Assembly (NCBI RefSeq): GCF_000264945.2 | Contig: NZ_CP013070.1 | Coordinates: forward strand, 124,001 to 188,000 | Direction: 5' to 3' | Source of the DNA: Sphingobium indicum B90A | Lineage (GTDB): Bacteria; Pseudomonadota; Alphaproteobacteria; Sphingomonadales; Sphingomonadaceae | Length of the DNA: 64,000 nucleotides | Part shown: positions 5,718 through 49,840 of the stretch, piece by piece | Numbering within the stretch: the first letter of the stretch is position 1 | Layout of the letters: each line of letters starts with the position of its first letter | Translations under genes and position numbers: made by a program | The notes under the pieces: model-generated | What the model saw: only the letters and a program-made list of their open reading frames with translations | Database searches by the model: none | Told to the model about the DNA's origin: nothing

Positions 5718-5742
5718 GTTCCTGCGAAGGCAGGAACCCAGT
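5718..5742. repeat. single arm of palindromic repeat family C
   Basis: The 25-nt arm beginning GTTCCTGCGAAGGCAGGAAC, identical to the left arm of the complete element at 38241-38302, lies just after dedA. The second arm is missing. The arm itself contains a small hairpin and may end both convergent transcripts. Confidence 0.8.
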
Positions 5743-37904: not shown

Positions 37905-39206
37905 TTGGCGGCGGCTTTGGCCTTGAGGGCTGCGTTTCGGACATTTTTGCTTCTGTTGGCGCCGATCCTGCTGGTGCTGTTCGGCGGGTTGCCCGCGCTG
38001 TTGCGCACGGGACAGGTGGATCCGCGTGGGTGGATGGTTCCGGCGTTGCTGCTGGTGCCGGCGACGGCTCTGCTGCGGGCGCGGCGGGGTGAGGGGGCGG
38101 CCTGGTGGGTAGGGGTGGGAACGGTCGGGACAGTGCTGTCCTGTGCATTTCTGGCAACGTGGCGAGTGCCGGGATTGGTATCGGTGGCTTGGCTGCTCGC
38201 TGGGGTTCTGGCGGCGACAGTTGCGGGATTGATGTTCCGTGTTCCTGCGAAGGCAGGAACCCAGTTCAAATGGTCGGACTGGGTTCCTGCCTTCGCAGGA
38301 ACACGGCAGATGGCGGGACTGGGGTTCGCGCTTCTCGCCTTGGCGATTAGCTGGTTTGCGCGAGAGCATCGCATTGAACCCTCGCCGGGGAAGCGAGCAG
38401 AGCTGGAGGTCATCAGCGGCCTGCCGTTATTCTGGCGGGAAAATGGCGTAAAAGCTGACGCGCCGATCATCACGGTCCTGCGCCAGCGCTTCGATGTGCG
38501 GCCTGTCGACAGTCCGCTGGCTCTCGAAAAGGGCGGCGCCGGAATGCTGCTGCTTGCCCAGCCACGCGCTTTTTCCCTGGACGAGCAGGTTGCTCTCGAC
38601 GCCTGGATCGGCAAGGGCGGCAAGGCGCTGATCCTGGCCGACCCGCAATTGCGTTGGCCGATGGACTGGCCGTTGGGGGACCGGCGCAGGCCGCCGGCGG
38701 TGACCCTGCTCGCCGCGATGATCGAATATTGGGGCGTGCGGATGACGCCGCCTTCTTCCGGCGAACAGCGCCATTTCCTGGGCGATGGGCGGGTGCTGAC
38801 CATTTATTCCGCCGCCGTTTTCGAGAATGCGGGGCCGGATTGCCGCATCGTCGGGCGCGGGCTGGCGGCGCGGTGCATGGTGGGGAAGGGCAGCGTGACC
38901 ATCGTCGCGGATGCCGACCTGATCGATGACCGGCTCTGGCTGGCGGATCCCGCCGCGCCGCTGGAGCCGGCGCAATGGACCGCCGATACGCCGCAATTCG
39001 TGGCGGAAGCGCTGGGCGCGCTGCTTCCGGCAGGACGGCGCTGGGTGCGGTCGGGCGAGGCGCTGGTCAACGCCCTCCGCTGGGCGGTGGTCGTCGGGAT
39101 TTTCTGGGCAGCCTTGGGAACGGTGCTTTTCCGGCGGCGCGCGGCGGCTCCTTCCGGCCTTTCTCCGCCACGGCCCGACCGGCCAGAGCCTGTTAAAGAA
39201 GGTTAA
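37905..39206 (+). CDS. GldG-like membrane protein with an in-frame palindromic insert
   Basis: 433 residues: N-terminal hydrophobic helices, an extracytoplasmic domain with GMLLLAQPRAFSLDEQVAL and DAWIGKGGKALILADPQL, which resembles the GldG/ABC_transp_aux fold, and a final helix (WAVVVGIFWAALGTVLFRRR). No ABC ATPase partner is adjacent. No ATG occurs near the start, so TTG 37905 or 37923 is used. Residues about 112-133 (FRVPAKAGTQ then WVPAFAGT) are encoded by a complete palindromic repeat lying in a loop between two membrane helices, and the frame is kept. Confidence 0.75.
   Translation: MAAALALRAAFRTFLLLLAPILLVLFGGLPALLRTGQVDPRGWMVPALLLVPATALLRARRGEGAAWWVGVGTVGTVLSCAFLATWRVPGLVSVAWLLAGVLAATVAGLMFRVPAKAGTQFKWSDWVPAFAGTRQMAGLGFALLALAISWFAREHRIEPSPGKRAELEVISGLPLFWRENGVKADAPIITVLRQRFDVRPVDSPLALEKGGAGMLLLAQPRAFSLDEQVALDAWIGKGGKALILADPQLRWPMDWPLGDRRRPPAVTLLAAMIEYWGVRMTPPSSGEQRHFLGDGRVLTIYSAAVFENAGPDCRIVGRGLAARCMVGKGSVTIVADADLIDDRLWLADPAAPLEPAQWTADTPQFVAEALGALLPAGRRWVRSGEALVNALRWAVVVGIFWAALGTVLFRRRAAAPSGLSPPRPDRPEPVKEG
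38241..38302. repeat. palindromic repeat, family C, inside a coding gene
   Basis: A perfect 25-bp inverted repeat (38241-38265 with 38278-38302, arm beginning GTTCCTGCGAAGGCAGGAAC) around a 12-nt loop. It is translated in frame within the GldG-like gene. A lone arm is at 5718-5742. Confidence 0.93.
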
Positions 39207-46145: not shown

Positions 46146-47218
46146 TGCTCTACTGGCTTGCCCAGACCATGGATTTCGCGGGTGTTTTCAACCTCATCCG
46201 CTATTTGAGCTTCCGGGCCGGGGCGGCCATCGCTACCGCGCTGGTCATCGGGTTGCTGATCGGCCCGCGCTTCATCGGATGGCTGCGCGTGCGGCAGGGC
46301 AAGGGGCAGCCGATCCGCGACGACGGCCCGCAGACGCACCTCGCCAAGCGCGGCACGCCGACCATGGGCGGCCTCATGATCCTGACTTCCATGGTGTCGT
46401 CGGTGCTGCTGTGGATGGACCTGTCCTCCATCTATGTCTGGGCCTGCCTGTTCGTGACGCTGGGTTTCGGCGCCATCGGTTTCCTCGACGATTATGACAA
46501 GGTGACAAAGGCCAGCCACAAGGGGCTTTCGGGCAAGATGCGCCTCGCCTTCGAGTTCCTGATCGCCGGTTTCGCGGCGTGGCTGATCGTCAGCCAGCAT
46601 GGCAATACCGCGCTTTACGTGCCCTTCTACAATGGTCCGGCCATCGAATTGGGGCCCTTCTATTTCCTGTTCGCCGCCTTCGTGATCGTGGCGTTCGGCA
46701 ATGCGGTGAACCTGACCGACGGGCTGGACGGGCTGGCCACCATGCCGGTCATCATCGCCTGCATGGCGTTCATGGCCATCGTCTATCTGGTGGGGCGCGC
46801 CGACTTTGCGGGCTATCTTGGCATTCCGCATGTGCCGGGGGCGGGCAACCTCACCATATTGTGCGGGGCGATCATCGGCGCGGGGCTGGCCTTCCTCTGG
46901 TTCAACGCGCCGCCCGCGGCCGTCTTCATGGGCGATACGGGCAGCCTGGCGCTGGGCGGCACCATCGGCGTGATCGCCGTCACCGCGCATCATGAGATCG
47001 TGCTGGGCGTGATCGGCGGGCTGTTCGTGGTGGAGGCGATGTCCGTCATCATCCAGGTCTTCTTCTACAAGCGCACCGGCAAGCGCGTGTTCAAGATGGC
47101 GCCGATCCACCATCATTTCGAACAATTGGGCTGGGCCGAACCCACGGTCGTGATCCGCTTCTGGATCATCTCCTTCGTGCTGGCGCTGGCGGGACTCGCC
47201 ACGTTGAAGCTGCGGTGA
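46145..47218 (+). CDS. mraY: phospho-N-acetylmuramoyl-pentapeptide transferase
   Basis: Integral membrane enzyme forming lipid I from UDP-MurNAc-pentapeptide and undecaprenyl phosphate. The catalytic and Mg2+ motifs [20 protein letters not shown] and [15 protein letters not shown], plus [15 protein letters not shown], are all present among about ten membrane helices. 357 residues. Confidence 0.98.
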
Positions 47219-48612
47219 GCGCCATGGGGATCGTCTCCGACGTCTTTGCGGGCAGGAAATATGCGGTGCTGGGCCTGGCGCGGTCCGGCCTCGCCACGGT
47301 GGAATGCCTGGCGGGGAGCGGAGCGCAGGTCGTGGCATGGGACAGCCGCGAGGAAGCGCGTGAGGCGGTCGCGGACAAGGCGGAACTGGCCGATCCCACC
47401 GAAATCGACCTCAAGGGCTTTGACGGCGTGGTGGTGTCGCCCGGCGTGCCGCTCAACAAGCATCCCATCGCCATGCATGCGAAGCTGGCGGGCGTGCCGG
47501 TCATTGGCGACATAGAATTGTTCGCGCTCGCCCGGCCAAGCCTGCCGAAGCATCGGGTGGTCGGGATCACCGGAACCAACGGCAAGTCGACCACGACCGC
47601 GCTGGTCCATCATATCATCGAGACGGCGGGCATCCCGACGCGCATGGGCGGCAATATCGGGCTTCCGATCCTCGGCCAGACCCCGTTGCCGGAGGGCGGC
47701 GTCTATGTGCTGGAACTGTCGAGCTACCAGATCGACCTGACGCAGAGCCTCGACTGCGACGTGGCGGTGCTGCTCAACATCACGCCGGACCATCTGGATC
47801 GCTATAATGGCTTTGAGGGCTATGTGGCGTCCAAGGCGCGGCTGTTTGCGATGCAGTCGGCCGGCCATGTCGCGGTAATCGCGACGGAAGATGAACCGAG
47901 CCGGGGGATATTCCATTCCATCCGTCATTCCCGCGGAGGCGGGAATCCATCTCCGGACCTTGCATCTGGACGCGACGATGGGGAGATGGATCCCCCCCCT
48001 CGCGGGAATGACGGGGTTGTGGAGGTGCAATCGGGCGACATCGATCCGTCCGCTCAGGCCGGCTGGCCCGCATTGCAAGGCCCGCACAACGCCCAGAACG
48101 CCGCCGTCGCCATCGCCGTCGCCCGCGCGCTGGGCATCGACGAAGCGACCATCGAACAGGGCCTGCAAAGCTATGCCTCTCTCCCGCACCGGATGCAGCG
48201 GGTGCGGGAGTTGAACGGCGTCCTCTACGTCAACGACAGCAAGGCGACCAACGCCGCCTCGACCGCGCCCGCCCTCGCCGCCTATCCCCCGGTCGACGGG
48301 CGCAAGCGGCTGCACTGGATCGTCGGCGGCCTTGCCAAGACGGACAATCTGGACGAGTGCGCGCCCTGGTTCGGCCATGTCGCGCAGGCCTATACCATCG
48401 GCGAGGCTGGCCCCATGTTCGCGGAACTGCTGCGCCCGCATATGGCGGTGGACGATTCTGAGATGCTGTCCGCCGGCGTCCGCCGCGCGGCGCGGGTGGC
48501 CCAGCCGGGGGACGTGGTGCTGTTGTCGCCCGCCTGCGCGAGTTTCGACCAGTTCCGCGATTTCGAGGCGAGGGGCGATGCCTTCGCCGCTGCCGTCGCC
48601 GCGTTGGAATAG
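47215..48612 (+). CDS. murD: UDP-MurNAc-L-alanine--D-glutamate ligase with a palindromic insert
   Basis: Mur ligase adding D-Glu. [12 protein letters not shown] (about 117-128), NIGLPIL and the C-terminal [12 protein letters not shown] are conserved. GTG 47215 overlaps mraY; ATG 47224 is an alternative start. At 465 residues it is about 25-30 longer than usual because residues about 236-267 ([14 protein letters not shown]... PPRGNDG) are encoded by a family D palindromic repeat. The reading frame is intact on both sides, so the enzyme is presumably functional with a surface loop insertion. Confidence 0.95.
47922..48014. repeat. palindromic repeat, family D, inside murD
   Basis: Outer perfect 14-bp arms CCGTCATTCCCGCG (47922-47935) and CGCGGGAATGACGG (48001-48014); inner arms GGGAATCCATCTCC (47941) and GGAGATGGATCCC (47982) pair as well. 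The 93-nt length is a multiple of three, so the insertion keeps the murD frame. Confidence 0.93.
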
Positions 48613-48637
48613 AGGGAAGCGGAGGAGCTTGGGAGGC

Positions 48638-49840
48638 ATGTCGAGGGCAGGCGACCTTGTAAAGGAGTTCAGGAACCGCACCGTCCCGCGCGAGCGCACG
48701 GCGCTGGCCATCTGGTTCTGGGAAATCGACCGCGTGCTGTTGTCGCTGATCGTCGCGCTGATGGCGATCGGGCTGGTCGCCGTTGCGGCGGCTTCCCCCG
48801 TGGCGGCGATCGATCGGTCGACCAGCACGGTTTCGGTGACGCCGCTCATCTATTTCTACCGCCAGTTGATGTGGGTGTTCATCGGCCTGCCGATCATGCT
48901 GGTGATCTCCATGCTCCCCCGGACGCAGGCGCGCAGGCTGGCCTTCATCCTGTGCATCGTCTTTGCCGTGGCGCTGCTGCTGGTGCCGGTGCTTGGGTCC
49001 GTGGTGAACGGGGCGAAGCGCTGGATCGACCTGCCGGGCTTCCGCTTCCAGCCGTCGGAGTTCCTGAAGCCCGTCTATGTCGTCACCATGGCCTGGCTGC
49101 TGTCGCTGCGCGGCAAGGACATGACGCTGCCCGTGATCCCGCTGACCGGCGTGCTGACATTGCTGATCGCGGCGATCCTGATGAAGCAGCCCGACTTCGG
49201 CCAGACGGTGATTTTCCTCGCCTGCTGGGGCGGCCTGCTGCTGCTGTCGGGCGTGTCGATGCGCTTCATCGGCGCGATGGCGGGCGCGGGACTTGGCGGG
49301 CTGGTGCTGATGTACATGTTCTATGAAAATGGCCGTCAGCGCATCAACGACTTCCTGGGCATCGGCGTGGCGCAGGATGTCGGACCAGACCAGACCGAGC
49401 TTGCCTTCCGCACGATCACCCACGGCGGCTTCCTGGGCGTGGGGCCGGGCGGCGGGCAAAACAAGTTCCGCCTGCCCGAAGCGCATACCGACTATATCTT
49501 CTCCGTCATCGGGGAGGAGTTCGGCCTGCTCGCCTGCATCGGCATTGCCTGCGTCTATCTGGCGATCGTCGTGCGGGTGTTCCTGCGCATGCTGGACGAG
49601 GACGATAATTTCACCATCCTGGCGGCGGCGGGCCTGACCACCCAGTTCGGGCTCCAGGCGATCATCAACATGGGCGTCAATGCCCAGATATTTCCGTCCA
49701 AGGGCATGACGCTGCCCTTTATCAGCTATGGCGGCTCCTCTATGCTGGCGCTTTGTATCGGCGTCGGCCTGTTGCTCGCGTTCACGCGGCGCAATCCCTT
49801 CATGGGTCGGCACACGGTCGTCAAATGGAGTGGTCGATGA
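48638..49840 (+). CDS. ftsW: septal peptidoglycan polymerase FtsW
   Basis: SEDS-family glycosyltransferase working with FtsI. About ten membrane helices; landmarks MKQPDFGQTVIF and FPSKGMTLPFISYGGSSM. 400 residues from ATG 48638, which has GGGAGG 4 nt upstream; the frame is open well before it. Overlaps murG by 4 nt. Confidence 0.96.
   Translation: MSRAGDLVKEFRNRTVPRERTALAIWFWEIDRVLLSLIVALMAIGLVAVAAASPVAAIDRSTSTVSVTPLIYFYRQLMWVFIGLPIMLVISMLPRTQARRLAFILCIVFAVALLLVPVLGSVVNGAKRWIDLPGFRFQPSEFLKPVYVVTMAWLLSLRGKDMTLPVIPLTGVLTLLIAAILMKQPDFGQTVIFLACWGGLLLLSGVSMRFIGAMAGAGLGGLVLMYMFYENGRQRINDFLGIGVAQDVGPDQTELAFRTITHGGFLGVGPGGGQNKFRLPEAHTDYIFSVIGEEFGLLACIGIACVYLAIVVRVFLRMLDEDDNFTILAAAGLTTQFGLQAIINMGVNAQIFPSKGMTLPFISYGGSSMLALCIGVGLLLAFTRRNPFMGRHTVVKWSGR

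Follow-up and report, generated by a model that had tools for sequence, protein, structure and literature searches.

An in-frame CGTC REP dimer in murD of Sphingobium indicum B90A, in a loop that repeats appear to have occupied more than once

The window analysed here is a 64,000-nucleotide stretch of the Sphingobium indicum B90A genome that contains a murD gene with an embedded 93-bp repeat element (Table 1). The murD reading frame is open across the whole gene, insert included, and gives a product of 465 aa from the GTG at 47215 or 462 aa from the ATG at 47224, with matches to the Pfam families MurD-like_N, Mur_ligase_M and Mur_ligase_C, all above their cut-offs. A pseudogene or second murD is ruled out, as the other match in the same genome is only 27% identical. 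The element is an imperfect palindrome with two arms of 33 nt each (47922-47954 and 47982-48014) that are 88% complementary and enclose 27 nt. In the murD frame it reads as 30 residues, RHSR...RGND, flanked by (I) and (G). Its inverted-repeat score of 21, the best in murD, lies above all values from 200 codon shuffles of the gene (maximum 14), which rules out a chance palindrome, and a known structured RNA is ruled out by the lack of any Rfam match at gathering score in 47000-49000. An earlier note on this DNA had placed a palindrome inside murD at exactly these coordinates and had held that its 93 nt leave the frame unbroken; both statements stand. Its estimate of about 31 added residues holds for the number of codons that the element covers, but not for the net gain, which is 84 nt, or 28 residues (an anchor-to-anchor loop of 138 nt here vs 54 nt in the commonest empty loop), because part of the loop codons vary or have been substituted. 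When the product is aligned to the best three PDB chains, each of them named MurD, the alignment is interrupted between query residues 223 and 287, which belong to the central domain, and the insert would occupy a variable loop of that domain.

Table 1. Coordinates of murD and of the parts of its repeat insert in the window
Feature	Position	Strand	Basis
murD, UDP-N-acetylmuramoyl-L-alanine:D-glutamate ligase	47215..48612	+	ORF; Pfam; PDB MurD chains
93-bp CGTC REP head-head dimer, in frame with murD	47922..48014	+	palindrome, genome matches, copy comparison and unit layout
Left REP unit: CGTC tag, stem ATTCCCGC/GCGGGAAT with 8/8 pairs, loop GGAG, tail CCA	47922..47949	+	
Spacer between REP units; middle diverges freely among species	47950..47986	+	copy comparison
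Right REP unit, inverted: CGTC tag, stem with 6/8 pairs, loop GAGG, tail CCA	47987..48014	-	
GCGGGAAT, direct repeat copy 1; 63-nt spacing, in-frame collapse possible	47939..47946	+	
GCGGGAAT, direct repeat copy 2; 63 nt from copy 1	48002..48009	+	

CGTC-1 REPs have a stem of 8 bp with a loop of 4 nt, CGTC as the tag and CCA as the tail, and head-head (HH) dimers are two CGTC REPs with their tags outside (Di Nocera et al. 2013, PMC3733652). Both units of the murD insert have an unpaired, outward-facing CGTC tag and a CCA tail. The stem of 8 bp, with A-T as its first two pairs, and the 4-nt loop are also present, with a complete left stem and a right stem that has decayed by two pairs. CGTC-1 REPs recur within a genome, mainly in the form of HH dimers, and the murD element likewise has further full-length and partial matches in its genome. 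The murD insert thus belongs to the CGTC REP superfamily, as an HH dimer with the CGTC-1 layout.

The murD gene was extracted from all 94 Sphingobium genomes returned by a genus search, as one long ORF per genome (the gene of G092, which has no insert, is split over two frames). Inserts were labelled by eye, from alignments and folds, as types A-E or as remnants. On this labelling, a full dimer lies at the same murD codon in 20 of the 94 genomes (10 of type A, five of C, two of B, two of E and one of D), a short in-frame remnant in six, and no recognised insert in 68. Types differ in their stems (CCCGC, CCAGC or CCGGC, CCTGC) or in the tag (CGTC vs GTGC-like). Insert lengths vary, yet all 26 full or shortened inserts lie within one open murD frame. 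A scan blind to the labels found a hairpin score of at least 14 at the loop in 14 of the 94 genes, all of them among the 20 full carriers, and missed the other six (G083, G084, G114, G025, G085 and G111). It found a strong hairpin elsewhere in murD in only two genomes, one of which, G026, has a REP-like dimer in the N-terminal loop. Ten loops are 72 nt long. One is a labelled remnant (G089), and two others, perhaps three, look like decayed single units, with as much similarity at 0 of 365 (G008), 0 of 372 (G031) and 5 of 369 (G080) background positions; five (G026, G033, G036, G091 and G107) have no likeness to a decayed unit. The murD loops of named relatives span a range similar to that of the 94-genome set. 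Alignment of related MurD proteins, the check that the earlier note had proposed, finds the segment absent, differently palindromic or collapsed, and it is therefore a real repeat insertion. Some related species carry hairpin repeats of other kinds, or what is left of them, at this position, so that the murD loop seems to be used by repeats again and again.

Outside Sphingobium, strong REP-like palindromes were found in two of 31 murD entries (29 loci scanned). A Sphingomonas MAG (L117) has one in the same murD loop, with 30-nt arms and at most two mismatches, and Sphingomonas segetis (L113) has one in the N-terminal MurD loop. The latter loop also looks filled in L112 and L114, and the G026 hairpin lies there as well; REP-like inserts in this second, N-terminal-domain loop occur mostly in Sphingomonas (L112, L113 and L114, with L117 also listed).

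Elsewhere in the B90A genome there are 11 other full-length matches to the 93-bp element, at 71-82% identity, and further partial ones. Among 20 places around copies, one further full copy is clearly intragenic and in frame, in cobN; many of the remaining sampled copies look intergenic by frame and composition, on incomplete gene calling. The cobN copy (C1:2475100-2478600; L199:345-3500, - strand) is a CGTC dimer spanned by one CobN domain. Matches to the cobN query occur in 69 of the 94 genomes, and in the 30 that were aligned the dimer looks like a single insertion, because one spacer is common to G000, G027 and G063, shorter REP-like remnants occur in G012, G065 and G066, and none is seen in the other 24. 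According to PMC3733652, CGTC REPs have no transposase of their own; in agreement with this, a Y1_Tnp profile search of the B90A genome returned no match; the control search, for the Y1 class only, was positive in five of 14 genomes. Y1_Tnp is present in 23 of the 94 Sphingobium genomes. A RAYT-driven REPIN is ruled out, as no Y1/RAYT was found in the B90A genome and only six of the 20 full carriers have Y1_Tnp.

Another REP dimer of the window, at 38238-38305, is of the CCTGC type and lies in frame in an ORF at 37905-39206 (+), where it reads VPAKAGTQFKWSDWVPAFAGT. The encoded protein matches ABC_transp_aux (DUF4350 is below its cut-off), and the dimer separates two of its hydrophobic stretches. 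Among 30 aligned homologues, related inserts occur in G027, G063 and G012 and are absent, for example, from G003, G011 and G070. Five homologues from other species (L283, L284, L286, L287 and L289) carry a different, mutually similar stretch, ASS.VEK...SRL.SKR, in the same loop, a hint that such loops may also be open to other repeat families. A single REP core, CCTGCGAAGGCAGG, lies at 5721-5734 of the window. The pattern CCNGCGNARGCNGG has 258 matches in the B90A genome vs 55 for the reversed control, mostly in the CCTGCGAAGGCAGG form among the matches listed.

Frame is kept strictly in murD. Tag-to-tag length is 91 nt in all eight A-type copies with both tags recognised; the right tag is changed in G083 and G084, which have a loop length of 135 nt, as do five of the eight. 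Other dimers were sampled from 40 stretches, 27 of which had both tags by a strict pattern, with cobN then dropped. The lengths of these 26, most of them picked for exact tags, are split 9/9/8 modulo 3, and 87 of their 156 frames contain a stop. In-phase murD copies against such an even split elsewhere are the pattern that loss of every frame-breaking copy from murD would produce. The same observations bear on the idea that the hairpin is skipped by the ribosome, as in mitochondrial byp elements or T4 gene 60, or is removed as RNA. The predicted hairpin is very stable, as that idea would have it, but an open frame in all 20 full and six shortened inserts, set against the phase variation of the other dimers, leaves it with next to no credence.

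Constraint was compared among nine A-type murD copies (36 non-independent pairs, with G083 hand-cut to 91 nt and G084 left out). The fraction of third codon positions that differ is 0.131 (left arm), 0.136 (right arm), 0.524 (spacer) and 0.349 (flanking murD); at first and second positions the fractions are 0.045, 0.141, 0.342 and 0.095, respectively. Conservation of third positions in the arms beside a drifting spacer makes the arms look held at the DNA level. It is the DNA palindrome, not the peptide, that appears to stay conserved, and the encoded spacer peptide seems to drift. A dimer that G000, G027 and G063 share at one matching place, in no long shared ORF, has 0/33 differences per pair in the left arm, 1-3/33 in the right arm and 3-9/24 in the spacer; in the comparison between this dimer and murD, coding context is without effect on repeat evolution. 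Domestication of the inserted peptide as an aid to MurD would agree with its retention in an essential gene in several species and with the low first- and second-position value of the left arm, but is very improbable: the spacer is more divergent than flanking murD whatever the codon position, first and second positions of the right arm vary as much as third ones, most of the genus has no recognised insert, and two S. chlorophenolicum proteins differ by 21 residues at the loop.

That difference is a single gap between the MurD proteins of S. chlorophenolicum L-1 and P0003 (inferred to be NBRC 16172), and P0001 and P0005 likewise differ by a 21-residue gap at the loop. An 8-bp repeat (GCGGGAAT or GCGGGAAC) occurs twice, 63 nt apart, in the dimers of G000 and G027 only, two of the eight A copies. 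A 21-residue collapse would fit 63-nt direct repeats of this kind.

The history of the site was examined on a tree of murD without the loop (a quick method and a single locus), with groups for clade tests named by element type but after the tree had been seen. Membership of a single clade is rejected for the full set of 20 dimer carriers (AU p 2.6e-4), for the 10 A carriers (AU p 1.5e-6) and for six A copies (AU p 1e-57, in a group picked after both tree and spacers had been seen). On the flank tree, no fewer than 16 changes are required for insert presence and 22 for the complete set of labels, and starred branches force eight for the empty group; the counts fit gain or loss equally. The first 215 residues of P0009 and P0087 are identical, but the former has a dimer and the latter a short loop, and exchange at the loop therefore happens. 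Interspecies spread of filled loop alleles by homologous recombination could, on the strength of this mosaic and of the scattering of the six post hoc A copies over different branches, explain most of the patchiness. We hold this to be possible but lean slightly away from it, as carrier-carrier divergence beside the insert is not clearly reduced vs that of other pairs. Close to the insertion point the flanks have diverged strongly whether or not the loop is filled, and thus give no trace of recent exchange. Flank mutation induced by the element is ruled out, as empty loops diverge as fast nearby.

Spacers carry a record of descent. Those of five A copies (G000, G063, G021, G015 and G090) are each closest to another sampled murD copy, which points to one old shared origin rather than repeated arrival; the G027 spacer has a paralogue as its best match, and nothing matches the G013 and G093 spacers well. 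Some A copies are thus probably old, inherited or exchanged, with related spacers that diverge roughly like the flanks. An origin of this sort could be extended to the whole site, as a single ancient insertion in early Sphingobium followed by vertical descent and many losses, with the other types made by in-place conversion from other REP dimers. Such a history would account for related spacers in five A copies from distant branches, for a spacer difference between G000 and G021 about as large as their flank difference, for P0113, which looks chimeric (A-like on the left, C-like on the right), and for the few 72-nt loops that resemble decayed single units. It agrees less well with the empty loops of G024, G066 and G101, which resemble the empties of the sister group and so look primitive rather than deleted, or with the five 72-nt loops that are unlike a decayed unit. 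Five types would still require several replacement events. In addition, the two B dimers have unlike spacers and perfect 26-27-bp arms and sit in the B-richest genomes, so that some occupation of the site looks recent. On balance, we think it rather doubtful that a single ancient insertion explains the site.

Resident repeat families offer a further view of these events. G108 and G009, the two B carriers, rank first and second of the 94 genomes in B-family matches (47 and 40; the next has 25). G117, the third B-richest with 25 matches, holds an A-type remnant, and G020, the carrier of a B-like remnant, has seven B matches. A B-type dimer was present in one of 10 stretches taken from B-carrier genomes, which were chosen from weak protein matches. 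Genomes with an A dimer or A-type remnant (n=15) have a median of 16 A matches vs six in the 68 empties (one-sided p 4.5e-4, kinship ignored); the two A-richest genomes, G034 (59) and G075 (55), have empty murD loops. A rule by which the murD type would in every case match the family resident in the genome breaks down for E, whose carriers are not E-rich (G102 has 23 matches and is 14th of 94; G111 has two). Type C says nothing on this rule because the C pattern is too rare everywhere, with at most seven matches in any genome.

On the sequence-based reading that we prefer, the murD insert is very probably a translated, dispensable passenger in a tolerant loop of MurD that has been repeatedly replaced, collapsed or exchanged. 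A CGTC-type REP dimer (a REPIN-like inverted pair) would have entered the variable loop of the MurD central domain and would be translated with MurD as a loop that leaves the active site undisturbed, as open frames and conservation suggest. Selection would keep only frame-preserving copies. Slippage at a 63-nt direct repeat could reduce a dimer to roughly a single REP unit without loss of the frame, and the loop could be refilled or changed by new copies from the REP family resident in that genome or, alternatively, by homologous recombination that swaps murD loop alleles among species. Direct landing, conversion in place and exchange of alleles are each a possible route, and more than one of them seems to have been at work.

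The murD loop shows repeats adding and removing protein loops at little visible cost. Di Nocera et al. (PMC3733652) leave open whether CGTC REPs are dying out or still mobile, and what would move them. At one codon of an essential gene, compared over 94 species, types change between close relatives, some arms are near-perfect and collapse products occur, which makes this mobility question testable by strain comparison and a trap assay. It is rather unlikely, though possible, that the loop in sphingomonad MurD is a preferred landing or conversion site for CGTC dimers that are still copied without a RAYT, with the genome-active family tending to win. If so, the murD locus could serve as a natural trap for the machinery that moves CGTC REPs.

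Several known repeat systems resemble the murD element. REPINs of Pseudomonas, which are mobilised by RAYTs, consist of two inverted REPs with a spacer and have a GTAG tag and a RAYT partner. The murD element shares the inverted REP pair with spacer but has a CGTC tag instead of a GTAG-type one. Rickettsia palindromic elements (RPE-1, -4 and -6) are in-frame palindromes in conserved protein genes, and the murD insertion is likewise in frame, in a conserved gene and absent from orthologues. RPEs are longer, at 105-146 bp compared with 93 bp, and an RPE-bearing guanylate kinase is translated and active, with changed substrate affinity (Delihas 2007, PMC2229807). RPE-4 and RPE-6 have been assigned to the CGTC superfamily (PMC3733652), which makes the Rickettsia comparison drawn in the earlier note apt, even literal. 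Neisseria dRS3 repeats have been equated with CGTC-1; these differ from the murD element in lying mostly in large clusters (PMC3733652). CGTC-1 HH dimers are like the murD element in their tag, in the lengths of stem and loop, in the CCA tail and in forming a dimer with a spacer and tags that face outward, and also in their alphaproteobacterial hosts, the lack of a known transposase and their occasional presence in genes, where they encode 20-30 residues (PMC3733652). S. chlorophenolicum is named there as a host of CGTC families. The in-frame repeat in an essential gene is real, as the earlier note had it, but is less novel than it proposed because intragenic CGTC-superfamily REPs, many of them dimers encoding 20-30 residues, have been published (PMC3733652). 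The terms 'murD', 'muramoyl' and 'cobN' are absent from the main text of that paper, whose supplementary list of intragenic REPs may include murD, and a REP in murD is not mentioned in titles or abstract openings among the matches listed, which is weak evidence of absence. The repeat kind is already known, and murD is a new host gene for it. In Xanthomonas recB, different REPs lie 'about at the same site' (PMC3733652), compared with five types at one codon across a genus, plus shortened remnants, in murD. The unusual part is that one codon of an essential gene is repeatedly occupied by several repeat types.
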